This document shows, piece by piece, positions 27,751-53,558 of a stretch of 64,000 nucleotides of DNA. Origin of the DNA: Cloeon dipterum. Taxonomy: Eukaryota; Arthropoda; Insecta; Ephemeroptera; Baetidae. The DNA lies in the NCBI RefSeq assembly GCF_949628265.1, contig NC_088790.1, positions 25,424,545 through 25,488,544 on the forward strand. Direction: 5' to 3'. The notes under the pieces were generated by a model that saw nothing but the letters and a program-made list of their open reading frames with translations, did no database searches and was not told the origin of the DNA. The translations under genes were made by a program, and so were the position numbers. Every line of letters begins with the position of its first letter. Positions within the stretch are counted from its first letter, which is position 1.

Positions 27751-27807
27751 CTCTCGTTTTGCTTCCGACACACGACTGATGTAAAGTAGCATCGAGCAAA
27801 GCGAGAC

Positions 27808-29030
27808 ATGCGCAGCTTACAGGTGATGAAAATCAACATCAAACGCAGCCTCATACTTTAGCACGTACTTTGCAGGTTTGGCTCATTTTGCTAATAGCTT
27901 TGATAGCTATTGAGTTCGAATCGGGCGAAGGCAAGATGACTAAGAAACCCGTTAAAAAGACGACTGCAGCCTTAAAAACCAAAAATAATGCCAAGTCGAA
28001 AGGGGTAAAATCCCCCGCCAAACAAAAACCTGCAAACAAGAAAGTGGCAAATCCAAAGCATAATGGTTTAAAAACCACCAAAAGAGCTGCCACTACCCAG
28101 ACCCAGAAACGAGTTCAGCTACACACGACTGCTTCCAAGAAAAATGTGGCGGTGGAAAAAACCACAAGCGTGAAAACCGATTTTAAAAGCTCAGCCAAGC
28201 CGATTACCATCAAGCAAACCACTAAAACGACGACAATAGACGTGGCTAAGCTTTTGAATGACCTCAAATCGTTCAATCAAGTTGAATCAAAGACAACCTC
28301 AGCACAAACAACAACCACTTCCGAGTCCACCAGCATGAGTCCAAGCACCCCCAGTGGAGTGGAAGTTGGCCCAATCCTGACTATTCAGCAAACACTTTTC
28401 AAAGAACCTACATTTTCCGATACTGAAGATTACTATTCTCAATTGATTCCTAAATCTGAGGTTGGACAGTCAGTGCCGTTGAAAGTTGCCGAACAGGGAA
28501 TCGCACCTTTGTCAATCTCTGCTACATTTTTTGATGCTGCAGACCAGTTTACAGCACTTTTAACGACAACTTCAACAACAACTCCAATCCCTTCAACCAC
28601 GGAGACCAATTCATCCCATGTCACTTCAACCACGACATCAATTCCAACAACTACTTTGACTTCACCAATAACTACTGTTCAACCTTTGACAACCACAACA
28701 CGTCCAACCACGACGACAACAACAACACAAACCACGACAACCACGACATTAACTACTTCAACTTCACCAACTACTACTAAACCTTTGACAACCACAACAC
28801 CAACAACAATCCAAAGAACCACAATCTGTTCCATAAGGCCGAAAACGACCGTAAAAGCATCATTCCAGGCGCCTATGCTGGTCTTCGCAAAAATAGCACT
28901 CCCAATTGCCATGGCGGTCAACGATACCACGACTTCCTCGACGTCGACCGTTGGATTTGATGCAAATATTGGCATTGTTGAGTTCCCTAATGGAACAGAG
29001 TCGCCAACAGCTCTTCTTGCATACAACTAA
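27808..29030 (+). CDS. Secreted Thr-rich mucin-like protein 1
   Basis: Two exons: 27808-27822 (5 codons) and 27876-29030, joined across a 53-nt GT-AG intron. The product is about 390 residues. It begins MRSLQVWLILLIALIAIEF, a clear signal peptide, so it should be secreted. Next comes a strongly basic Lys/Pro/Ala region (about residues 22-65), then a Ser/Thr region, a Thr/Pro-rich tract (about 235-320) that would be heavily O-glycosylated, and a non-repetitive C-terminal block (about 325-390) conserved in the neighbour copy. There are almost no cysteines, so this is not a peritrophin or lectin. An AATAAA lies at 29172-29177. I do not recognise the family; glue, silk-coat or mucus proteins have a similar composition. 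The first exon is inferred because no ATG opens the main frame. Confidence 0.8.
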
Positions 29031-30421: not shown

Positions 30422-32213
30422 ATGCGCAGCTTACAGGTGATGAAAATCAACATCAAACGCAGCCTCATACTTTATAGCACGTACTTTGCAGGTTTGGCTC
30501 ATTTTGCTAATAGCTTTGATAGCTATTGAATTCAAATCGGGCGAAGGCAAGATGACTAAGAAACCCGTTAAGAGGACGACTGCAGCCTTAAAAACAAAAA
30601 ATAACGTCAAGTCGAAAGGGGTAAAATCCCCCGCCAAATCAAAACCTGCAAACAAGAAAATGGCAAATCCAAAGCATAATGGTTTAAAAACCACCAAAAG
30701 AGCTGCCACTACCCTGACCCAGAAACGAGTTCAGCTAAACACAACTGCATCCAAGAAAAATGTGGCAGTGGACAAAACCACAAGCGCGAAAATCTATGTA
30801 AATGATAAAACCAATTTTAAAAGCTCAGCCAAGCCGATTACAATCAAGCAAACCACTAAAACGACGACAATAGACGTGTCCAAGCTATTGAATGACCTCA
30901 AATATCTCAATCAAGGTACATTAAAGACAACCTTAGCACAAACAACAACCCCCTCCGAGTCCACTAGCACGATTCCCAGCACCCCCAGTGGAGAGGAAGT
31001 TGGCCCAATCCTGACTATTCAGCAAACACTTTTCAATAAAGAACCGACATTTTCCGATACTGAAGATTACAATTCCCAATTTACTCCTCAGTCTGAGGTT
31101 GGACAGTCAGCGTCAACCCTTAATTTCAGAGAAGAAGAACCGCTGAAAGTTGCCCCACAGGATATCACACCTTTGTCAATCTCTGCAACATTTTTTGATG
31201 CTGCAGACCAGTTTCATGCACTTTTAACGTCAACTTTAACAACAACTCCAATCCCTTCGAATACAGAAACCAATCCATCCCCTACAATTTCAACCACGAC
31301 AACTATTCTAACAACCACGACATCAACTACGTCGATTTCACCAACAGCTACTGTTCAATCTTTGACAACCACAACACGTCCAACTGCGACAACCACAACA
31401 ATACCCACAACAACCACATCACCCACGACGACAACAACACCAACCAGAACAACAACCACAACACCAACAACAACCACGACGACAACAACACCAACCATGA
31501 CAACAACCACAACACCAACCACAACAACCACAACACCAACCACGACAACAACAACCACGACGACAACAACACCAACCAGAACAACAACCACAACACCAAC
31601 AACAACCACGACGACAACAACACCAACCATGACAACAACCACAACACCAACCACAACAACCACAACACCAACCACGACAACACCAACCACAACAACCACA
31701 ACACCAACCACGACAACAACAACCACGACGACAACAACACCAACCACGACGACAACAACACCAACCACGACAACAACAACCACGACGACAACAACACCAA
31801 CCACGACAACAACAACACCAACCACAACATCCACGACGACAACAACACCAACCACGACAACAACCACAACACCAACCACAACAACCACGACGACAACAAC
31901 ACCAACCATGACATTAACTACTTCGACTTCACCAACTACTGTTCAACCTTTGACAACCTCAACACTAACAACCACAACAACCCAGAGAACCACAAGCAGT
32001 ACCGCAAGGCCCACAACAACTTCGAAAACGTCAGTAAAAGCAATATTCCAGAAGCCTATGCTGGTCTTCGGAAAATTATCACTCCCGTTTGCCATGGCGC
32101 TCAAAGACACCACGACTTCCTCAACGTCGACCGTCGGATTTGATGCAAATTTTAGCATTGTTGAGTACCCTAGCGGAATGGAGTCGCCAACAGCACTTCT
32201 TGCATTCAACTAA
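30422..32213 (+). CDS. Secreted Thr-rich mucin-like protein 2 (expanded repeat)
   Basis: Tandem paralogue of the gene at 27808. Exons are 30422-30436 and 30492-32213 with a 55-nt intron at the same position. The product is about 578 residues. Signal peptide, basic N-terminal part and C-terminal block match gene 1 closely. The middle tract (about residues 265-485) is an almost pure Thr/Pro repeat with rare Arg, Met or Ser. It contains a perfect or near-perfect 132-nt unit (44 residues) occurring twice in a row, at 31441-31572 and 31573-31704. An AATAAA lies at 32365-32370. Length differences from gene 1 are almost entirely in this tract. Function is unknown; the composition suggests an O-glycosylated, gel-forming or adhesive secreted protein. 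Confidence 0.82.
31441..31910 (+). repeat. Coding Thr/Pro minisatellite
   Basis: Built from ACA/ACG/ACC/CCA codons, with a 132-bp higher-order unit duplicated at 31441-31704 and shorter periodicities after it. Open frames on the opposite strand (Trp/Leu/Val repeats) are only shadows of this repeat. Confidence 0.9.
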
Positions 32214-33039: not shown

Positions 33040-35192
33040 ATGACCTTAGGTGATTTTACGAGCGCGTCTGGTTTCGTATTTTTGGTTTTGCTTCCGACCT
33101 TTGGGTCTCTCATCGCTCTCTTCTGCACCGTGGCGCTTGTGAAACAAATCGCTCCCAACTCTTGGCTACGGTATGAATTTAATATAAAGCTTAGAAAGTT
33201 ACATTATTTGATGGTTTAATAGATTCTGCGCGTGGGAAGTTGCTAGAAAGTCGAGAAGCAAGGCTCATTTCAACCCTGAGCTGTCTAGAATCTTTTGCGA
33301 GCTCGTCAGGAGAGCTGACAGTGATTTATTAATTTTGGAAATTGGATGCGCTGGAGGTAAAAATAAAATCATCTGCCTAATATTGCATTTTTAACCCTCT
33401 AATTTGTTTCAGGTGCCAATCTCGCTGCGTTTCCAGCCAACAGCGAGCTGCTGATGCTGGACATCAACCCCTACTGCGAGCAATACCTCAGGAAAAACCT
33501 AGAGAAATACTCTCACTTATCGTTGAAGCAGTTCATTTGCGGCTCGGCAGAAAAAATCTCGCAGGTGCCGAGTTGCAGCGTGGATGTGGTCGTCAGCTCT
33601 CGCACCTTGTGTTCCTTAAACGAGTCCAAGGCACTGAAGGAGATCTTCCGGGTTCTAAAACACGTGAGAATAATTATTGGTACAATTTAATGAGGAAGAT
33701 GACTAATTTTTTTAACTCAGAACGGTAAATTGGTTTTCGAGGAACACGTTTTGTCTGATGTGAGCTTGTGGAGACTCGTCCAGAACTTCTTGTCTCTCAA
33801 CAGGTAAAAGACAAACAAGTTGACTGTTTAGTCATTTTTAAATTAAATATAGAGCAAGTGGTTTGCACCCCTTGGGCCCTTTGGGCAACTGTCAACAACG
33901 CCGGCAAAACCGCAAAAAAACATGCGCGACCTAAGGAAGATTAGTGACAGACAAGGATGAAAAATCGTTGCGAAGTATCGCTAAATGTGCTCGAAAGTAT
34001 TAAAAACCGGCCTAGGAGCTGTCTCAGGTCGCGGAGTACCCTGAGAAAAGTCGTTAGGGTACCGCAGGTCAACGCCTCGTCTGAGACCTCTCCGATGATG
34101 TGTCGTGGCCGATAATAGGACGAGTGGCCAAATTTTGAACAAAAATAACTTTCGCCCACACACGTGAAGCAGAGAGAAAAAAGAAAAAAATTAGTTTTAA
34201 TTTTTCTATGGGCGCGAAAAATCTGAAAATTGGTTTCAAGACCGGCAGAGGTCCTGCGCGTGCGATGTGGTTGGTAATACCCTTCAATCTTGCTGCGTTC
34301 AGACAACTTCGCAAATATTCGATTTCCTATGTTAAACTTACATAGAAAGTGCAAAAATCGCGTTTTTCAAAGTTAAAAATCCATCTCTTCCTAGGATTTT
34401 GTTTGGACCGGCTCTTATTTGTTGTTAAAATGATCCCAGATAAATTACGCTTTGATTGAAGAGCAATTTTTTGCCCTGGACCGGGGGTAGTATCAAAAAT
34501 TTTGACTCTCTTGGAAATTTAGCAAAAAAAAAACATGAAAATTCGAAAAGTTGTCCGATTTTGAAATATCACACACGGGCGGACGCGCCTCATCGAGGTG
34601 CATCGATTGGTACCAACATTGGTGCCGTCCGGCCCATAAGGCCCCGACAGGGCCCCGAAAACCAAAATTTGAAATGTCATATTTTGTGTATTTCAAATTT
34701 AAAACTTAATAACTCGGCTCCTATTGGTCGTACAGTAAAAAAAGTTTGTTAGACTCGCCGCTCGCCGCAAAATTCTGCGTCTTTTAGGCCCGCTGAAGTG
34801 AAGATTTTTTTAAATTTGCCTAAAGGCCGGATTTCAATTTCGACTGCTTGACACACTGTTCCGCGTTGCCATACGTCGATATATATAGGGAACGCTGGGT
34901 TCGGTCAAATGTTATTTTTAATCGATGAGGATGAAGTTCGTTTTTATTTTTCAATTTTTCAGTCTTCATAGATGTATTTTCTAGCGTGGTGATCAAATTA
35001 AAACCAGTCGATTGTCCATTTTTTTCCAGGATATCGGCAACTCTATTTTTTGGCTGCAGATCGAACAAGGATATCGTTGAAGCCATTGAGAAGGCTGGCT
35101 TCCAAAACTTGAGCGTGAAGAGGAAAAAGCCGAGAAACTCGTTAGTAGGCCGTCTGCAGCCGTACGTCGTGGGAACAGCAACCAAGCCCTGA
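33040..35192 (+). CDS. METTL7 (TMT1)-like methyltransferase
   Basis: Five exons with consistent phases: 33040-33170, 33223-33356, 33413-33663, 33721-33803, 35030-35192, giving 253 residues, close to the roughly 244 of vertebrate METTL7A/B. The N-terminus has a hydrophobic membrane anchor (about residues 11-32), as in this endoplasmic-reticulum/lipid-droplet family. The SAM-binding motif I reads LILEIGCAGGANLAAFP, followed by an acidic LDINP strand end, then SVDVVVSSRTLCSL and the late motif KLVFEEHV. The C-terminal block ending in a PYVVGTA segment matches the family's final HIYGYAV-type strand. Members are SAM-dependent methyltransferases; thiol methylation is reported for METTL7A/B. The 1226-nt intron 4 holds a repeat insertion. 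The substrate here is not predictable. Confidence 0.88.
33850..34880. repeat. Repeat insertion in methyltransferase intron 4
   Basis: The other introns of this gene are 52-57 nt. This intron carries about 1 kb of extra sequence. Part of it (about 34020-34150, with GTACCCTGA and GATGATGTGTCGTGGCCGAT) recurs at about 36255-36355. No protein-coding capacity was seen. Confidence 0.6.
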
Positions 35193-35201
35193 TTACGAAC
35201 C

Positions 35202-35612
35202 ATGGAGGATTTTTTCAATTTTGGGAACGAGCTTTTCGAATGCGACAAGCAGCAAGTTGAAAAGGCAGCCCCGCAATTCACACCTCTCTATTTCTCTCCT
35301 AAAGACTGTGATGGCGACGCAAAGTTCAAAGAGGATCCGAAATTGTACAAGCAGTACGCCGACTACCTGTATTTTAAGGGCGAGTACAGCGCTGCCTTGC
35401 TCGCGTACCAAGAATTGAGGCACGCGTACCAAGGCAATTTGTTTATGGCCAAGTGTGTTCAGGAAAGTGAAGCCTGGTGTTTGGCCAAGTTAGGACGCGC
35501 AGATGAAGCCGAAGCTGTCGCCCAGCTGTTGGTAGAACAGGCAAACACCTATGAAAGCAAACGTGGCATCGAATATTTCCTGGAAAAACTAAAAAGTCAT
35601 TCCAAAAAATAG
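35202..35612 (+). CDS. Small TPR-like protein, C8orf76-like, copy 1
   Basis: A single exon of 136 residues starting 9 nt after the methyltransferase stop codon, on the same strand. The central part (about residues 46-115) reads as a tetratricopeptide-type helix pair: LYFKGEYSAALLAYQEL, then ESEAWCLAKLGRADEAEAVA. From memory this resembles the N-terminal third of the C8orf76 protein family, in both the K.Y...LYFKGEY.AAL..Y pattern and the CLAKLGR.DEA pattern. The product is much shorter than human C8orf76 (about 380 residues). No signal peptide or membrane segment is present. The close spacing suggests translation from a shared mRNA with the methyltransferase. A second copy lies at 47856. Family assignment is tentative; coding status is well supported by conservation in the copy. 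Confidence 0.72.
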   Translation: MEDFFNFGNELFECDKQQVEKAAPQFTPLYFSPKDCDGDAKFKEDPKLYKQYADYLYFKGEYSAALLAYQELRHAYQGNLFMAKCVQESEAWCLAKLGRADEAEAVAQLLVEQANTYESKRGIEYFLEKLKSHSKK

Positions 35613-35832: not shown

Positions 35833-36430
35833 ATGCAGATATTGAAGATCTTCTTTCTAAACATCCTGGTAATATTCAATTTCTAATGTGTTTATCTCAT
35901 AAAATTGTGCATGCTGATTGTTACAAAATAATCAAAACAACTGCTCTAGTCATGTCTTTGTGTTTAGATATATAATTAAAGAATAAATAGCTTGATCTAG
36001 TATTGATTTTGATGATAAATCATTGAAACCTAGAAATGTATAAACCGCCAGATGAGTTGGTTATGGTCTTAGATCGGATTTTCGAAAAAGACTTCCTGCT
36101 AAAAGGAGCCTTCTAATATTCGGAACTTGATATCAATATGGCTTTTGAATTATTTTTTATCTTGGATATATTAATGCAAAATATCGTCTCTAAAAATCTA
36201 AATAAATTTATCGCCATATTATAGGGACACAATTTATATTTAATTTTCGTTGTTTGTCAGGTCAGGATACCCTGAAAAAGTTCAGATTCCAACACCTGTC
36301 TGATGAGGGGTCGTGGTCGATGATCGGATGAGTGGCTGAATTTTAACAAAAATAAAACCACTTGGCTGATTTTAACGGCTGCGAGGTTTAGACGAAAAAA
36401 TCTTTAAACGACTGGATTTGAGATGCGGGG
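35833..36430 (+). pseudogene. Decayed lectin-OBP gene fragment
   Basis: 35833-35868 is a perfect-looking first exon (MQILKIFFLNIL followed by GTAATATT), matching the signal-peptide exons at 36954 and 48471. About 370 bp later the homology to the intron breaks near 36,245. A repeat related to the methyltransferase intron follows, and then 36364-36430 matches the 3' end of lectin exon 14 plus its downstream intron. All other exons are missing. This is an internally deleted duplicate. Confidence 0.65.
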
Positions 36431-36953: not shown

Positions 36954-39900
36954 ATGCAGATATTGACGATCTTCTTCTTTCTAAACATCCTGGTAATATT
37001 CAATTTTAATGTGTTTTTCTCATAAAATTGTTCATGGCGATTGTTAAAAATAATTATATAGCTCTATCTAGTCATGTCTTTGCATGTAAATATATTATTA
37101 AAGATAAAATGGCTAAATACATCGTTCTGATTTGGATGATAGTTCATTGAAACCCGGAAATGTATATATACCACTGGATGAGCTTACCATTGCTTTAACT
37201 TATTTATAGATTAACCTGCATCTGATTTTCGTAAAATGCTTTGTTCTTTTCGCTTTTGAAAATTGCCTTTTCTAATATTCGGAAATTGAAACCAAAATGA
37301 CTCTTGAATAATTTCTGGCTTGGATATATTAATAATAATCGTCCCTCAAAATCAAGAGGATATTTTTATCGCCATAGTGATACAAATTGTTTTGAATTTT
37401 CGTAGTTTGTCGACCTGAACAGTGCAGCAAAGTCTCCAAAAGCGACAAACAAAAACTCTGGCCTTAGAGGTAATTTCTTAAGTTTGATATATTGAATGGA
37501 AAAAAATCTGCTGAATAATACAGATGTGATGACTATGTGCAATTTTTACTCTGAAATATATGTATTGAAATTTTTAAAACTATATCTACCTTGAAATATA
37601 GAAAGTAAGAGCGCCCGCAGAGGGATAATATTAAAATGCTGTGGAAAAAAATCGTGCACCAAACCAGGAGCAAGATTAAAGCAAAACGTAACCTTGTTGC
37701 TTGAAACATCGTTGCTTAAAAATTCCGCATTCACACCCAAATATGAAAGAGTAAAATATGTCGAAAGGATGAACTAACTTTATTCCTAATTTTTTTTAAT
37801 ATCAGAGCTCAACACATCAAACAAATATTACCATCAGCAGCAAAATTATTGAAGAGCTGCAATCAGCAACTTATTCTGATACAGATGCAACTACAGCATT
37901 GTAAGATCACCAATATGTTTCAAATAAATTTGAGAGAAGGACGAGAGGTCAAGTTAGTAAATTGTCAAAAGGGGAAATATATCACATTATTTTAATTGTT
38001 GTTCTTAAAAATTGCATGAATATATCTTTATAATTATGATGTAACGTGAACATGCAACGAGATTTTAACGCTTATTTCAATCCTTTTATTCAGCTCGGCA
38101 TTTAAAAACAGTTCAAATGAGCTGGAATCCCAAAGCAGAGAGAAATTAGTGTCTTCAACCAGTAGTGATATTGCTACATCACCAAACTTCGCCCATTCAA
38201 CTGAACCGACACGTTTCTCAACAATGGATTCAACCTCAAGACCAGCAACAATGGACCCAACTACAATCACAACATCATCATCAACAGATCAGAGAACAAC
38301 GCTGACAACTCCAGTTCTGACAGAAATATTTACAACATCATCAACCTGGTCTACCAAATTAACGGCAATCTCAACAACCTCAACAACATTGATTACGACA
38401 AAAATATCGTCTTCAACTACGACAACAAGAGCAACAACCTCAACAACAACTCCACCTTTAACCACAACTTCAACAGTACAATCTAATAATTTATTTTTTA
38501 AATATCAATTTAAACGCAAAATAGGATCTCATCGTAGAAAAATGCGAATCTTCATTCTCACTAGATGTAAAATATATACAATTATTTCCTTTTATTGCTT
38601 ACCCTATTCTGAGTCCTTTCAGAAGGGACTTTTTGAAACCAATGGACGATTGAAAGGTTTAATTTCTTGAATTTTATTTTAATATTTACGAAAAATCGTA
38701 TTCTGTAGATCCGGACAAATTCGGTTTTTGGGTCACCTCATGCAATCAACTTTTTGTGTTCGGCAAATCTTTGGTGAGCCTGCGCTCCTATATTTTTAAT
38801 AATATATATGGAAATTTAATGCGTGCAGGTGACGTGGAGGGAAAACAACATCAAATGCGCTTCAATTGGAATGCAGCCGATTGAAATAGGAAACGACGCC
38901 AAATATCAGTGCTTCAAGGAATTGGGTTTGCAGAGACCCCCAAATTTATTTAAAAGGCGGATTTTAATTTAATTTTATTAAAAGCAATCAATTGGAAGTA
39001 CGGGTCAAACTACTGGACCTCTGGCCTAAGGACACAAGGCAGTAAATTTTCGTGGTGCACCAAAAATGGATCTTCTGAGATGACCGGTTCTGTGGATCTT
39101 TGGGCGCCAGGCCAGCCCGATAATCTGAGCGGATCGGAAAACTGTGTTCACTTGAACATCAAAAAAGAAAATACTACTGTTTATTTAACCGACAAAAAAT
39201 GCACCAACATCAATGTTTTTTCCTGCCAAGTAAATATTATTTAAATTATGTTGTTATGATATGAATACAGACGATCCGTATCAAATCTGTCAATATTTGC
39301 CTTTTTACAATTAAATTCGCAATGGAATACTTTATAATTTGTTAAATTTGCAGGGTCCGACAACGCCTCCGCCACCATGCTCGTCACCAGTTTGTCCCAA
39401 TATCACGTGCAAAAGAAATGTAATTACAAATAATTGAATATTTCAAATGATAGCTGAATTTTGATCCCAAAAACAGATGTCACTTTATACAAATTCGACC
39501 AAAGAGGGCAAGACTTCCTACTATTTGACAAGTAAAAAAGGCGTAATAATTAATTTTTAGCGGCTATATTCTCGCTCCAAAACTCTTACAGATCCAGATA
39601 TGTTCGGCTCCTGGTACAAGAAAAACAGCCGTTTTTACTTTTATAGCTACTCGAACCAGTCGCAAACAGTCTCTATAAATTAGAATTATCCGCTGACTAA
39701 TTTTTTTTAAAAAAATATCTCGTTCAGTTCCTAGGGGCGATGAAAGCCTGCTGCGATTTAGGAATGAATCTACTCAGCCTCCAGTTTGATTACAAATTTG
39801 ACGCAGTTATTGCTGGAATAAAAGGTTTAAGAAAATAAAGTAATAAAACGTCCAATGCTGACCGCTAAAAAACCATGAATGATTTTGGCAGCCCTTTAAA

Positions 39901-42009
39901 TTTTGGGGCTGGCCCCTGCTGCCCATTTTGGCCACGGCAACTGGGGCTTTGCCGATTGCGCACGAAGGCCAATCGGGCAGTGAATTTAGCTAAATAGAAC
40001 TTTATAAATATGTGCCTACCTGAAGCGATAAATTGATGATATTTTTAGCAGATTACTAACTATAAATTGTTTATTACCACAGAAAGATATGCAAATCCGG
40101 GCAACTTTTGGACTTCGGGCACAGACAGCGGTTGCGAGTCAACTTTCGGCTTCTGCGCTGTGAAACGTTTGCTTCGGAAAGATACCAACAATTGGCAGCC
40201 GGGACAGCCGAACAACGCAGGCGGAGCGGAGAATCACTTGGTTGTGTTCATCAATGGGTCAAGTGCATTGATGGCTGATTTTAACGGCGATGTAAAGCTC
40301 CGATACATCTGCGAGGTTTGAGCACAAAATCTTTAAACAACTGGATTTGAGACGCGAGCTGCGTTTATACAGTCCCGGGACACGTCCAATTCCGACTCAG
40401 CAGGCAAATCTGTGAGAGACGAGTGTGCTGCTATATACAATGTCAGCATGAGTGTGTAAATTAATTTTATTTTACTTCTAAATTTAATTTCATCCTATTC
40501 GAGGTGAAATTGATAATATGCTGAACAACACAAACTATGATTTGAGGATGAAAGTATGCTATATATTATTTAAAAGCTTGAAAATAGTGACGAAACCCGA
40601 ATTTTGTGCTAACTAATTTTTTGTTAAGTGCTTCATCAAGTGCATTGGCGAAAATAGCGGTTTGGTATAATTTGTTTTATTCTTTTGGGCCATCCCGATC
40701 TTGAAAGTAAATTGTATAGATGATCGACGGAAAGTTTATTGAAAGTGAAGTTCTGGCCATTTTGGAAAAGTTGGCAGTTGGTAATTTGGAGGATCTCAAG
40801 AAAAACTTGATGATAGTAGACGAGTGCTCTAATTCCTCTGGTTAGCTTTTGTAGCTTTAATTTTAGATTTAATTCTTTAACTAAAACAGGTGGAATGGAT
40901 GAGTGCGACAAGGCGGCGCAAATGATCAAGTGTACAAATGAAAAGGCGCCCGACGTACTCATGAGCGTAGTTAATGAAATGGAGAGGTCTATTTCTCAAT
41001 CGGAGTCATCCCAGGTCACTCGAGTCCTTTATTAATTATTAGACAGATTATTCATCCTTTGATATTTCTTTCAGAACATTGCTCCGCTGCGCCCGCAGCC
41101 TACTTTTTGTGTCCAAGATTATCCTTGCTTTGTAGACGTGAGATATCTTTATTTTAAAGTGTTCCATATGAAAGCAATTAATAATTAACTTCTACTATTG
41201 CAGTCGTTCTTAAGAGCGAAGTACGACGAAACGACAACAAGTGAGAGCCCATTTTAAACATTAACAATTTTAATTTCTGGTAGTATTTATAATTTCACTA
41301 TTTTTTTTAATTGGAATTATATGTAGTTTATTCCGTATTGTACATAAATAAGGAGCAATAGCTATATAATTCATAACAACATTCATATGCCTCTGCCTTC
41401 ATTGGCGTATAAATATTTCATAATTTATGTTTAAATATTATTTAAATACTATTTTAAAAGCGAATTTTTATATTTCAGGTCAGGAGTTTGATATCCCAGT
41501 ATCGTCCGCGACAAACTTCACTATTGATTGCGTTTGCGGCAAAAAATACCTGTTATTTACGATCTACAATGTATAAAATCGATTATGTATCACGCACTTG
41601 ACTAAATGACGGGCTGGCTAATATTTAGTACAACTACAACGCCGGAAACAGTCTGTGCTGCAAGTTCGGCCTCCGGCTGGCCACTCTGGACACACTGCAG
41701 AAGATAGAGTGCGTTTTTAACAGCTCAGGTATACCATTCTCTAATTCTGATATGAGCGAACTGTGAATATGTTGTGGTATAGTATATGGATCGTCGCACA
41801 AGATCTGCAACTTCTGGATTCCCGTTGCTTGGCGTGACGGACAGCCGCGGTGGTGTTTCTCAAATTCTCCTTTGAATGACCTCGCTTTCGACACTTCTAC
41901 TCTAGATCCCTCGATTCCGGGTTTTATTATGAATTACAATTTAAAGAAAATATCGTCATTTGATCTGAGCTCTGGCAATTATGCACATGTTTTGTGCGAA
42001 GATTATTAA
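36954..42009 (+). CDS. Secreted mosaic protein: CTLD-CTLD-OBP-CTLD, copy a
   Basis: Predicted 875 residues from 24 exons: 36954-36992, 37406-37469, 37602-37750, 37806-37900, 38094-38475, 38623-38656, 38709-38773, 38829-38925, 38985-39229, 39354-39419, 39477-39531, 39592-39668, 39728-39824, 40083-40315, 40373-40451, 40504-40553, 40629-40664, 40720-40840, 40890-41014, 41075-41137, 41204-41240, 41479-41570, 41629-41728, 41783-42009. All phases agree. Order: signal peptide (1-20); Cys patch with KCCGKKSC; Thr-rich stalk (about 86-243); CTLD1 (244-390) with YWTSG, WAPGQPDN and ENCVHLN; linker; CTLD2 (413-566) with FWTSG and PGQPNN; OBP domain (567-703) with six cysteines at 584, 610, 614, 657, 667 and 676 (spacing X25-X3-X42-X9-X8, the classic OBP pattern); CTLD3 (about 737-875). 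CTLD1 carries a QPD motif, linked to galactose-type binding in this fold, but lacks a full WND. AATAAA at 42089-42094. Exon 1 is the least certain part. Ligands are unknown. Confidence 0.85.
40373..41014 (+). other. OBP (PBP/GOBP-type) module within copy a
   Basis: Exons 15-19 form the OBP-like domain. Key stretches are VRDEC, MKCFIKCIGENSGL, MIVDEC and GGMDECDKAAQMIKC. The flanking introns (after exon 14 and after exon 19) are both phase 0, so the module is symmetric and could have been inserted by exon shuffling. In known insects OBPs are normally stand-alone secreted proteins. Confidence 0.85.
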
Positions 42010-47855: not shown

Positions 47856-48320
47856 ATGGAGGATTTTTTCAATTTTGGGAACGAGCTTTTCGAATGCGAC
47901 AAGCAGCAAGTTGAAAGGGCAGCCCCTCAATTCACGCCTCTTTATTTCTCTCCTAAAGACTGTGATGGCGACGCAAAGTTCAAGGAGGATTCGAAATTGT
48001 ACAAGCAGTACGCCGACTACCTGTATTTTAAGGGCGATTACAGCGCTGCCTCGCTCGCGTACCAAGAATTGAGGCACGCGTACCAGGGTAATTTGTTCAT
48101 GGCCAAGTGTGTGCAGGATAGTGAAGCCTGGTGTTTGGCCAAGTTAGGACGCACAAATGAAGCCGAAGCTGTCGCCCAGCTGTTGATGGAACAGGAAAAC
48201 ACCTACGAAAGCAAACGTCACATCGATCATTTCCTGGAAAAACCAAAAATCATTCCAAAAAATAGAGCACCTGTTGTTTTTGTGACGCACGAGGACCAAA
48301 ATTTAACGATGGAACCATGA
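47856..48320 (+). CDS. Small TPR-like protein, C8orf76-like, copy 2
   Basis: 154 residues, about 90% identical by eye to copy 1 over the first 128 residues, including the LYFKGDYSAASLAYQEL and CLAKLGR.NEAEAVA helix pair. A one-base deletion just before the copy 1 stop region (near 48248) moves translation into another frame, so this protein has a different and longer C-terminus ending in NLTMEP. The same 9-nt spacing to the upstream TGA is preserved, although the upstream methyltransferase exon is broken, so any expression needs a different promoter or transcript start than copy 1. Confidence 0.65.
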   Translation: MEDFFNFGNELFECDKQQVERAAPQFTPLYFSPKDCDGDAKFKEDSKLYKQYADYLYFKGDYSAASLAYQELRHAYQGNLFMAKCVQDSEAWCLAKLGRTNEAEAVAQLLMEQENTYESKRHIDHFLEKPKIIPKNRAPVVFVTHEDQNLTMEP

Positions 48321-48470: not shown

Positions 48471-51400
48471 ATGCAGATATTGAAGATCTTTTTCTTTCTA
48501 AACATCCTGGTAATATTCAATTTATTGTTTATCTCATAAAACTGTGCGTGCTTATTGTTACAAAAAAATTATTGCTCTATCTAGTCATGTCTTAGCGTGT
48601 AAATATATTATTAAAGATAAAATTACTAAATAATGTCGTTCTTATTTTGATGATAAATGATAATTCATGCATAAACCGGTAGATGAGCTGACTTTATCTA
48701 TAGATTGATTATCCGATTTTCGTATATAAGACACCATTCTTCTCGCTTTATGCCAAAAGGAGCCATGTTATGCTTTTGAAAAATGCCTTCTAATATTCTG
48801 GACTTGAAACCAAAATGGCTCTTGAATAATTTTAGGCTTGGATATTAATGTAAAGTGAAATCCCTCAAAATAAAAAACAAATATCGCTATATATTATAGT
48901 GATACAAATTATTTTTAATTTTCGTAGTTCGTCGGCCTGAACAGCGCAGCAAAGTCTCCAAAAGCAAGAAACAAAAAATCTGGCCTTAGAGGTAATTTTT
49001 TAAGTTTGATTCAACAAAAAAATCTGCTAACACAGATTAATACGAATGACTTTAAGCAATTTTGTATGCTCCAAAATATATGCATTGAAATTTTTAAAAC
49101 TATAACACTACTGTCTACCTTGAATTATAGAAAGTAAGGGCAACCGTAGAGGAATAATATTAAAATGCTGTGGAAAAAAATCGTGCATCAACCCAGGAGC
49201 AAGATTAAAGCAAAACGTAACCGAGGGGTTCAAAACATCGTTGCTAAAAAATTCGGCATTCACACCCAAAGATGTGAGAGTAAAATTTATCGAAAGGGTA
49301 AACTTTTAAACCTAATTATTTAAAAATCAGAGCTCAACAAAGGAAACAGAGATTACCATCACCAGTATAAATAATGAAGAGCTACAATCAGCAACTTATT
49401 CTGATACAGATGCAACTACAGAATTGTAAGATCACCAATATGTTTCAAATAAAGTTAAGAGGAGGACGCCAAATTAGTAAATAACAATCAAAAAAGGAAA
49501 TATAAATATGTTTATCAAAATTTTATTGTTCAAATATTGCACGAATATTTGTATGGTATAGCTTGCACAGACAATGAGACTTTTTTAACGCTTATACATA
49601 TTTCAATCCTTATAATAAGGAATTTAAAAACAGTTCAAATGAGCTGGAATCCAAAGCAGAGATAAATTATTTGCTTCAACCAGTAAAGATATTGCTACAT
49701 CACCAATCTTCGCCCATTCAACTGAACCGACACGTTTCTCAACAATGGATTCAACCTCAAACCCAGCAACAATGGACCCCACTCCAATTACAACACCATC
49801 ATCATCAACAGATCAGAGAACAAAGTTACCAACTCCAGTTTTGACAGAAATATTTACAACGTCAACAATGATCACAACAAAATTATCGTCTTCAACAAGA
49901 GCAATCACCTCGGCAAAAACTCCACCTTCAACCACAACTCCACCCCCATCTTTAGCGGTACTAATATGATAATTTTTTATTACCGGCTTTTTAAATTATG
50001 ACGGTAAATAGGATCTCATCGTAGGAAAATGCGAATCTTCATTCCCACCAGATGTAAAATACAGTATGTCATTGGATCATTTTATTTTTTTCAATATGAG
50101 ACCTTTCAGAAGGGACTTTTTGAAATCAATGGACGATTGAAAGGTTTAATTTCTTGAATTTTATATTAATACTTACGAAAAATTGTATTCCGTAGATCCG
50201 GACAAGTTTGGTTTTTGGGTCACCTCTTGCAACCAACTTTTTGTGTTCGGCAAATCTTTGGTGAGCGTTCGCTCTTATATTTTTAATAATATATATGAAA
50301 ATTTAATTTGTGCAGGTGACGTGGAGGGAAAACACCATCAAATGCGCTTCAATTGGAATGCAGCCGATTGAAATAGGAAACGACGCCAAATATCAGTGCT
50401 TCAAAAAATTGGGTTTGCCGAGCGCCCCAAATTTATTTATAAAAAGGTTTAATATAATTTTGTTAAAAGCAATAAATTGGAAGTACGGGTCAAACTACTG
50501 GACCTCTGGCCTAAGGACACAAGGCAAAAACTTTTCGTGGTGCCACAACAATAATGGTTCTGTGCGTTTTTGGGCGCCTGGCCAGCCCGATAATTTAAAC
50601 GGATCAGAAAACTGTGTTCATATGAACATAAAAACAGAAAACACTACTGTCTATTTGACCGACAAAAAATGCACCAACATCAATGTTTTCTCCTGCCAAG
50701 TAAATATTATTTAAATTAGGTTAGATATCTTTAAATTTTTGCCATTTTACAACGGAAAGTAATATGGAAGCAATATTCTAGATTTTCAAGTAACGATCAT
50801 GATCTCTTAAGAGTTATTAAAATTTGATTAGGGATTAATTTTTTCTAATCTATATTATTTATTAATTTTACAGGGTCCAACTACGCCTCCACCACCATGC
50901 ACGTCACCAGTTTGTCCCAATATCACGTGCAAAAGAAATGTAATAACAATTATTTAATATTTCAACTGAATTCTGCATGAATTTTGATCCCAAAAACAGA
51001 TGTCTCTTTATACAAATTCGACCAAAGAGGGCAAGACTTCCTTCTATTTAGCATGTAAAAATAAATGTACAATTATTAATTATCAACGGCTACACATGGG
51101 CTCCAAAACTGTTACAGATCCAGATATGTTTGGTTCCTGGTACAAGAAAAACAACCGTTTTTACTTTTATAGCTACCCGAACAAGACGCAAACAGTCTCT
51201 ATATAAATTAAAATTATGCGCTAACTAATTTTAAAAAAATATATCTCGTTCAGTTCCTAGGGGCGATGAAAGCGTGCTGCGATTTAGGAATGAATCTACT
51301 CAGCCTCCAGTTTGATTACAAATTTGACGCAGTTTTGGCTGGAGTGAAAGGTCTCTATTAAATTAATCAATTTATGGACCACACAATGCTTAATTGATAT

Positions 51401-53558
51401 TATTGCGGGGCACCTCTGATTTTCGCAGCCCTTTTCTTTGTAGGGCTGGCCTCTGCGGCCCATTTTGGCTTTGCCTGTTGCCAATCGGGCACTGAATCCA
51501 GTTATTAATACAAAACTGATAAATGAATTTATCTGTCTACCTGCTGGAGCGATAAATTGATGATAATTTTTATTTAAATTTTAAATTTTATTAACTATAT
51601 TGTTTCTTATCGCAGAAAAATATACAAATCCGGGCCACTTTTGGACTTCAGGCACTGACAGCGGCTGCGAGTCAACTTTCGGCTTCTGCGCTGTGAATCG
51701 TTTGGTTCGAAAAGATACCAACAATTGGCAGCGGGGACAGCCGAACAACGCAGGCGGAGCGGAGAATCACTTGGCTGTGTACATCAATGGGTCAAGTGCA
51801 TTGATGGCTGATTTTAACGGCGATTCAAAGCTGCGGTACATCTGCGAGGTTTGGACACAAAATCTTGAAACGACTGAATTTGAGACGCTGAGTTTACAGG
51901 CCCGGGACACGACCAAATCCGCCTCAGGAGGCAAAGCTGTGAGAGACGAGTGTGCTGCTATTTACAATGTCAGCATGAGTGTGTAAATTAATTTTATTTT
52001 ACTTCTGTAATTAATTTCATCCTATTCGAGGCGAAATTGATAATATGCTGAACAACACAAACTATGATTTGAGGATGAAAGTATGCCATATATATTATTT
52101 AAAAGCTTGAAAATAGTGACGAAAACCGAATTTGTGCTAACTAATTTTTTGTTTAAGTGCTTCATCAAGTGCATTGGCGAAAATAGTGATTTGGTAAATT
52201 ATTATTCTTTTGGGCCATCCCAATCTTGAGAGTAAATTGTATAGATGATCGACGGAAAGTTTGTTGAAAGTGAATTTCTGGCAATATTGGAAAAGTTGGC
52301 AGCTGGTAATTTGGAGGAATTCAAGAAAAACATGATGATAGAAGATGAGTGCGTTAACTCCACTGGTTAGCTTTTGTAGCTTCATTATTAGTTTTACTAT
52401 ACATTTTAACTTACAAAGGTGGAATGGATGAGTGCGACAAGGCGGCGCAATTGATTAAGTGTGCGAATGAAAAGGCGCCTGACGTGCTCATGAGCGTAGT
52501 TGATGAAATGGAGAGGTCCATTTCTCAGTCGGAGTCAGCACAAGTCTCTCGCGATTCCTATTATTTATTCGACAGATCATTCATCCTTTGATATTTCTTT
52601 CAGGAAATTGCTCTGCTGCGCCCGCAGCCTGCTTTTTGTGTCCAAGATTTTCCTTGCTTTATAGACGTGGGATCTTTTAAGGATGTGAAATATGGAAGCA
52701 ATTAATAATTTATCTATTATTGCAGACGTCTTTAAGAGCGACGTTCGACGAAACGACAACAAGTGAGGGGCATTTCGAACATTAACAATTTTAATTTCTG
52801 GGAGTATTTAAAATCACTATTTTTTAATTGGACTTGTGGGATATTCAAGTATTGTACATTTTAGCTATTTATCAACGGCTGAAATTAATTTGTCAACTTA
52901 AATAATCTTTTTTGAAGTTTAAATCAAATGTAGCTTGTTCCTAATTGTTTATGAATGAGGAAGTTGCAAATATTTTAATACAAATTTTAAAAGCGAATTT
53001 TACTGACTTTTTCATATTTCAGGTCAGTGGTTTGATATCACAGTATCGTCCTCGACAAACTTCACTATTGATTACGTTTGCGGCAAAAAGTACCTGATAT
53101 TCTCGATTTACATTGTAAATATATAATCAATGTATGTATCGCGCACTTGCCAAAATAACGGGTGGCTAATTTTTTAGTTCTCCTATACCAATGGAAACAG
53201 TATGTGCTGCAAGTTTGGCCTCCGATCGGCCACTCTGGACACACTGCAGAAGATGGAGTGCATTTTTAACAGCTCAGGTACCATTCTCTCTAATTCTGAT
53301 ATGAGTGAACCGTGAATATGTTGTGGTATAGTATATGCATCGTCGTACAAGAACTGGAACTTCTGGATTCCCGTTGCTTGGCGGGACGGACAGCCGCGGT
53401 GGTGTTTCTCGAATTCTTCATTGAGTGACCTCGCTTTCAACACTTCTACCCTAGATCCCGCAATTCCTGCTTTTATTATGAATTACCAATCTAAGAAAAT
53501 ATCATCGTTTGGTTTAAACTCTAGCTTTAATGCACATGTTATTTGCGAAGATTATTAA
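48471..53558 (+). CDS. Secreted mosaic protein: CTLD-CTLD-OBP-CTLD, copy b
   Basis: Tandem paralogue of 36954-42009, predicted 842 residues. Exons: 48471-48509, 48928-48991, 49131-49279, 49331-49425, 49660-49957, 50110-50143, 50196-50260, 50316-50412, 50470-50699, 50874-50939, 51000-51054, 51118-51194, 51254-51350, 51616-51848, 51900-51978, 52031-52080, 52158-52193, 52245-52365, 52419-52543, 52604-52666, 52726-52762, 53023-53114, 53178-53277, 53332-53558. Twenty-two of the 24 exons have exactly the length of copy a; exon 9 is 15 nt shorter, in frame. At the copy-a acceptor exon 5 would be out of frame, but a CAG 40 nt downstream (49657-49659) restores phase, so this start is inferred. All six OBP cysteines and spacings are conserved, as are QPDN in CTLD1 and QPNN in CTLD2. 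One CTLD3 cysteine of copy a (TIDC) is Tyr here, and the IC before NFW is NW. Function is unknown. Confidence 0.76.

Follow-up and report, generated by a model that had tools for sequence, protein, structure and literature searches.

Lectin-type domains and an odorant-binding-protein module in one predicted secreted protein of the mayfly Cloeon dipterum, a member of a large baetid family

Can an odorant-binding protein (OBP) module and C-type lectin-like domains (CTLDs) be parts of one and the same secreted protein? This question was raised by a gene, here called gene A, in a 64,000-nucleotide stretch of the Cloeon dipterum genome (contig NC_088790.1, positions 25,424,545 to 25,488,544 of the forward strand; hereafter the window, in whose numbering coordinates are given), for which the initial annotation had proposed the order CTLD-CTLD-OBP-CTLD. 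Our analysis supported a single secreted, mucin-stalked protein with CTLDs and a genuine PBP/GOBP module. On sequence grounds we regard it as shown, or nearly so, that gene A encodes one secreted multidomain protein belonging to a large family in two baetid mayflies, and we are close to certain of its architecture as one lectin-OBP protein.

The corrected exon model of gene A retained the span first proposed, 36954..42009 on the forward strand, and the order of the modules, and contained 25 exons instead of 24; the missed exon, 37602-37750 (RRGIILKCCGKKSCTK...), sits between FVDLNSAAKSPK (37406-37469) and SSTHQTN (37806), and P0005, a database protein, contains its stretch as well. Every one of the 24 introns is GT-AG, and the 2670 coding bases with one terminal stop encode 889 residues, in which the OBP module and the third CTLD (CTLD3) occupy residues 581-717 and 752-889 rather than 567-703 and 737-875. 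The model frame is open throughout all 25 exons, as against 7 and 9 exons for the two shifted frames, and these counts exceed chance. The best database protein was P0001 (LOC135946358, Cloeon dipterum), with 97% identity over 99% of the searched region. Two exon borders were rejected: a GC donor of exon 11, for which P0001 and relatives show an end at 39531 with a GT donor (...YYLTN), and a start of exon 2 at 37428, which was replaced by 37406 after comparison with database proteins. The chain runs from the signal peptide through a CCG..C motif, a Ser/Thr-rich stalk, CTLD1, a linker, CTLD2, the OBP module and a connector to CTLD3, and a second copy in the window, paralog B, has the same exon order:

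36954..36992, + strand: exon 1, start codon and first half of the signal peptide (MQILTIFFFLNIL); the same exon occurs in paralog B at 48471
37406..37469, + strand: exon 2, remaining signal peptide and start of the mature chain (FVDLNSAAKSPK..); P0005 has the stretch with substitutions
37602..37750, + strand: exon 3, conserved RRGIILKCCGKKSCTK motif; the CCG..C motif recurs in relatives
37806-37900 and 38094-38475, + strand: exons 4-5, stalk, residues 85-243, 51% Ser+Thr
38525..39229, + strand: CTLD1, five exons, residues 244-404, QPD motif; family profile against E-selectin, E=9e-9
39354..39419, + strand: linker exon GPTTPPPPCSSPVCPNITCKRN, residues 405-426, three cysteines, conserved
39477..40315, + strand: CTLD2, four exons, residues 427-580, QPN in gene A; family profile against mosGCTL-1, E=1.6e-7
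40373..41014, + strand: OBP module, residues 581-717, five exons (40373-40451, 40504-40553, 40629-40664, 40720-40840, 40890-41014), phase-0 introns at both borders
41075..41240, + strand: connector, two exons, residues 718-751
41479..42009, + strand: CTLD3, three exons, residues 752-889, and stop codon; family profile against dectin-1, E=5.9e-5
48471..53558, + strand: paralog B, exon order as in gene A; the projected ends of its stalk exon lack AG/GT

The identity of the OBP module was supported by both its cysteines and its profile matches. The spacing X25-X3-X42-X9-X8 of the initial annotation was correct, the six cysteines lying at residues 598, 624, 628, 671, 681 and 690, and it falls within the range of classic six-cysteine OBPs. 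The PBP/GOBP match that the same source had asked for was found: PBP_GOBP (PF01395) aligned with residues 10-112 of the 137-residue module at E=3.4e-14 and 53.4 bits, above the curated cut-off of 22. Solved OBPs matched at 1.5e-6, with eight distinct solved sequences including AGAP010489 and ASP1, which we take to be a bee protein. Within the family, PF01395 was found at E<=0.01 in 27 of the 28 members scanned, and each cysteine position is C in 51-56 of 57 alignment rows. In the modules of P0024 and P0033 four of the six cysteines are retained, C2 and C5 being missing; since C2 and C5 are disulphide partners in classic OBPs, the disulphide scheme is probably kept in both, and the loss may be one event because the two proteins are neighbours in the tree. 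The predicted model of the relative P0004 has helices at 465-592, and neither of two fold searches with it returned an OBP chain among the best 50 matches, CTLDs filling the lists so that the OBP part was barely probed. With the module profile, no free-standing relative was found at E<=1e-6 among 370 candidates sharing five-residue words, which is weak evidence of absence because the search needs such shared words.

The mosaic proved to be a large family rather than a single curiosity, with members in C. dipterum and Neocloeon triangulifer; a search for the architecture in other genomes had also been proposed at the outset, and the same design was recovered in N. triangulifer proteins. The 56 database proteins comprise 15 C. 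dipterum and 41 N. triangulifer entries. P0001 and P0002 represent the two copies in the window, and some of the C. dipterum entries may derive from a single gene present in two assemblies. The OBP module stands next to CTLDs in 55 of them, in a few as a fragment; by family profiles the exact order CTLD1-CTLD2-OBP-CTLD3 is present in 40, and nine end after the OBP module. Three C. dipterum proteins (P0004, P0050 and P0052) pass both Pfam cut-offs, which makes the lectin-OBP architecture visible in the databases. No relative outside Cloeon and Neocloeon was found among 53 matches from the best 8000 word-sharing candidates scored, a set whose coverage of other mayflies is uncertain.

In the C. 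dipterum assembly (190 Mb, 10 contigs), two OBP-module searches gave 148 listed rows over the last OBP exon, corresponding to at least 104 loci on contigs C1-C5, of which C5 carries the window. This is a rough count of the mosaic type that says nothing on stand-alone OBPs, the rows reaching up to E=10 and being hand-picked and both queries being mosaic modules. The 38 loci examined were 21 from 20 hand-chosen stretches, eight from more distant clusters, seven from a random draw (six stretches, hand-picked from 14 drawn at random) and the two in the window; 32 of the 104 lay in stretches covered before the random draw. CTLD exons were found on the same strand within 3 kb upstream at 38/38 of them (profile E<=0.01) and downstream at 37/38 (E<=0.1), and at most of them the OBP exons were followed in order by those of CTLD3. 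As controls, 30 loci in shuffled form and the rest of the window (E<=0.05) gave no profile match. One listed locus, C5:27974825, was not re-found by profile at E<=0.1 and gave a weak match at E=0.73. The Pfam OBP model detected a single locus, L001; its 3.2 kb gave no CTLD match, and it probably represents a stand-alone OBP. A genome search with PF00059 gave 106 matches, many of them outside mosaic loci. At another locus (L030, G000:C1:17066624-17071524) the exon order was CTLD2, OBP, CTLD3, a second OBP and CTLD3, which could stem from two genes, one of them truncated, or from a single protein in which the OBP-CTLD3 unit occurs twice.

A mosaic read from genomic exons could in principle be an artefact of exon chaining, in which three adjacent genes, one with two CTLDs, one for an OBP and one with a single CTLD, were mistaken for one. 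A stop just beyond the splice donor in the CTLD2 frame, encountered if the intron were retained, and the nine database proteins that end after the OBP module would fit such an arrangement. The junctions contradicted it. At eight of the 22 CTLD2-OBP junctions measured (loci L010 and L014-L020) there is no gap at all: a single open exon carries both the last part of CTLD2 and the first part of the OBP module and reads ...YICEARD... through to the first OBP cysteine, and the join needs no splicing inference there. Of the other 14 junctions, 13 have gaps of 51-73 bp and one has a gap of 193 bp, leaving scant room for a promoter and a signal exon; four of the junctions have GC donors, and one projected acceptor has no AG end. 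Moreover, the OBP exon of gene A has neither a start Met nor a hydrophobic signal stretch before its first cysteine, and CTLD exons lie upstream at every locus examined. We therefore rejected the artefact, which is hardly conceivable given the shared exons; a separate OBP gene, named at the outset as the finding that would overturn the proposal, is contradicted by these eight paralogous loci and by 55 of the 56 family proteins. The one-exon state, set against the short intron elsewhere, could reflect either intron loss or a state before intron gain. In gene A the introns at module borders are in phase 0 from the stalk to the connector and in phase 1 at the connector/CTLD3 border, and the phase-0 introns on both sides of the OBP module would suit exon shuffling.

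Paralog B offered a further comparison. Its splice sites are kept for the 24 exons compared, the stalk exon being left out, and that exon carries a 1-nt deletion relative to gene A. Between the two copies, the ratio of nonsynonymous to synonymous change (dN/dS) was 0.27 for CTLD1, 0.49 for CTLD2, 0.32 for the OBP module, 0.61 for CTLD3 and 0.44 for the core. Taken together, frame and splice sites, paralog B, the database family, the genome loci and the junctions indicate that the modules of gene A form one protein.

Several observations weigh against this conclusion, or against the lectin part of it. Support for the OBP-CTLD3 join comes from introns, gene models and conservation, with no exon shared by the two modules, and in dense clusters some of the downstream CTLD matches may belong to the next gene. 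The connector between these modules changes fast, with a dN/dS of 3.4 between A and B (34 codons, one synonymous change). The NCBI models P0001 (gene A) and P0002 (paralog B) are chimeric or short: P0001 fuses the start of an upstream short gene to the mosaic gene and is without the exon carrying the first OBP cysteine. As for the lectin-type domains, the proposed Pfam check gave a divided answer. Single CTLDs of gene A fell below the Lectin_C (PF00059) cut-off (best E=0.0074), and this model was found at E<=0.01 in just 14 of the 28 members scanned; on the other side, family profiles matched all three domains to solved CTLDs at the E values listed above, and the predicted model of P0004 shows three CTLD folds, CTLD3 included. 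The site-2 calcium ligand set of sugar-binding C-type lectins is E/Q-P-N/D, E, N-D. Gene A has Q-P-D, E, T-D in CTLD1 and Q-P-N, E, A-D in CTLD2, the set being complete in neither, and no QPD/EPN motif was seen by eye in its CTLD3. Because the Asn is replaced by Thr in CTLD1 and by Ala in CTLD2, calcium-dependent binding of sugars may be weak, or missing altogether. As a side observation, in the family alignment the second cysteine pair of CTLD2 is wholly absent in 47 of 57 alignment rows and wholly present in 10.

It could also be supposed that at some loci the main form is a shorter CTLD-CTLD-OBP product, from transcripts ending after the OBP module. The nine shorter database proteins point this way, as does L011, the one examined locus with no downstream CTLD match at E<=0.1. 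Yet L011 has a weak CTLD3 match at E=0.21, P0044 and P0045, two of the nine, continue for 120 and 194 residues past the OBP module, perhaps with a CTLD3 too divergent to score, and P0002 ends after the OBP module although the CTLD3 exons are present in paralog B. We consider such short main forms improbable.

What might a protein of this design do? Among the 37 members with all modules, median pairwise identity was 49.5% for the OBP module, 47.6% for CTLD2, 41.5% for CTLD1 and 24.8% for CTLD3, and OBP identity exceeded that of CTLD3 in 664 of 666 pairs, of CTLD1 in 464 and of CTLD2 in 352. The OBP module is thus conserved about like CTLD2, and CTLD3 is the fastest-varying, a combination that suggests a shared ligand class with varied targeting. 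The combination of secretion, a mucin-like stalk and domains of the lectin type is most simply read as that of a carrier for a hydrophobic ligand, anchored at a surface or in mucus, with a varied target. In such a protein the stalk would be O-glycosylated and extend the molecule, the lectin-type domains would bind glycans or glycoproteins and so hold it at a wet surface (candidates being the aquatic nymph's mucus, cuticle or sensory surface, or a microbe), and the OBP module would retain its three disulphides and hydrophobic core and hold a small hydrophobic ligand. Rather than diffuse freely, the protein would be a ligand trap or perireceptor carrier fixed in place. We would give a lectin-OBP mosaic protein acting as an anchored carrier, our best explanation of the whole, about an even chance, and the carrier role taken by itself is a tentative proposal that falls somewhat short of that.

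Immune recognition and structural mucus would be the main rivals of an anchored carrier. In the former, expanded and varied secreted lectins would bind microbes or parasites, and the OBP module a microbial lipid or other hydrophobic signal. The large family, its tandem clusters and the fast-changing CTLD3 are consistent with this role, and the profiles match surfactant protein D, dectin-1 and mosGCTLs, although a family match shows no function. The published expression of C. dipterum OBPs in nymphal or pre-nymphal clusters (121/152) and in gills (82/167), as given in PMC7250882, does not separate immunity from sensing, and we judge an immune role rather unlikely while giving it serious weight. 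In the latter, the protein would be secreted for structure or adhesion, as in mucus, a silk-like material or an egg coat, and its OBP module would be a helical spacer or protein-binding module with no small-molecule job. The mucin-like stalk, the repeated CTLDs, the cysteine-bearing linker and the calcium-site substitutions would agree with such a secretion, which we nevertheless think unlikely: the OBP module, conserved about like CTLD2 and more than CTLD3, has 27 columns that are >=90% hydrophobic, which fits a kept core or pocket and is no proof of a ligand.

The mosaic architecture bears on published OBP counts. According to Almudi et al. (2020, PMC7250882), C. dipterum has 191 OBP genes, the largest insect set described; 82 of 167 OBPs are expressed in gills and 25 are gill-specific, the published gill OBPs including OBP199, OBP219 and OBP260, and of 152 clustered OBPs 121 belong to one of four clusters with nymphal or pre-nymphal expression. 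The word 'lectin' is absent from the main text. For the heptageniid mayfly Parafronurus youi, PMC13205551 gives 10 OBPs of at most 252 residues, with incomplete models filtered, and likewise has no 'lectin'. No OBP-CTLD protein was described in the titles and abstract starts of the open-licence PMC articles that our searches listed, and a mention within a full text is possible. With at least 104 mosaic-type loci set against 191 genes, many of the published C. dipterum OBPs may be lectin-OBP mosaics. That the record repertoire consists mainly of mosaics forming a new perireceptor class (glycan-anchored, stalked traps for odorants or lipophilic cues at wet gill and head surfaces, with CTLD3 varying the address and the OBP module constant) is a possible, if doubtful, extension. 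OBPs are usually treated as small free carriers, whereas here the module is locked between lectin domains, possibly in 100 or more genes of one insect genome (at least 104 loci, 38 of them examined). Mayfly OBP gene counts and their reading as olfactory expansion would then need redoing by whole-protein architecture, and the family would provide a natural test of OBP domain roles without diffusion, in an aquatic insect whose gills have been proposed as sensory organs.

Other features were observed in the window around the two mosaic copies:

27780-29030 and 30444-32213, + strand: two alike open frames, Lys-rich then Thr-rich, with no Pfam match
31389-31908: repeat array in the second of these frames
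33403-33687, + strand: methyltransferase domain, PF08241, E=1.3e-10
35202-35609 and 47856-48197, + strand: a short gene before each mosaic copy, with DUF5588 and TPR matches below cut-offs
35833-35853: a further copy of exon 1, with the signal peptide start, which makes three; it lies 1.1 kb before gene A and is perhaps a duplication relic

The two Lys- and Thr-rich frames may encode other mucin-like secreted proteins. Because the short gene is present before both A and B, the tandem duplication seems to include it.

Several known systems come close to the mosaic. It shares with classic insect OBPs (PF01395) the spacing 25-3-42-9-8, a Pfam match above cut-off and matches to solved sequences, and differs in that its module is no small single-domain protein; it is embedded as residues 581-717 of an 889-residue chain and has no signal peptide of its own. 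With proteins of the mannose receptor/Endo180 type it shares several CTLDs per chain: fragments of these were the top Foldseek matches of the P0004 model, and P0002 is named 'macrophage mannose receptor 1-like' by NCBI. The mannose receptor family consists of type I membrane proteins with cysteine-rich and FNII domains. Gene A differs by the OBP module between CTLD2 and CTLD3 and by its N-terminal Ser/Thr-rich stalk; no transmembrane-like stretch was found after the signal peptide and no cysteine-rich or FNII Pfam match at E<=1, which places it outside that family. The CTLD2 profile matched the mosquito mosGCTL-1 (1.6e-7), -3, -6 and -20, whose matched chains differ in being 151-198 residues long. 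A further counterpart is P0053 (Neocloeon LOC132200629), whose N terminus is likewise rich in Ser and Thr and whose CTLDs belong to the profile types of the mosaics; it differs in having six CTLDs and no OBP module by family profiles or Pfam; it possibly represents the design before OBP insertion, or else OBP loss.

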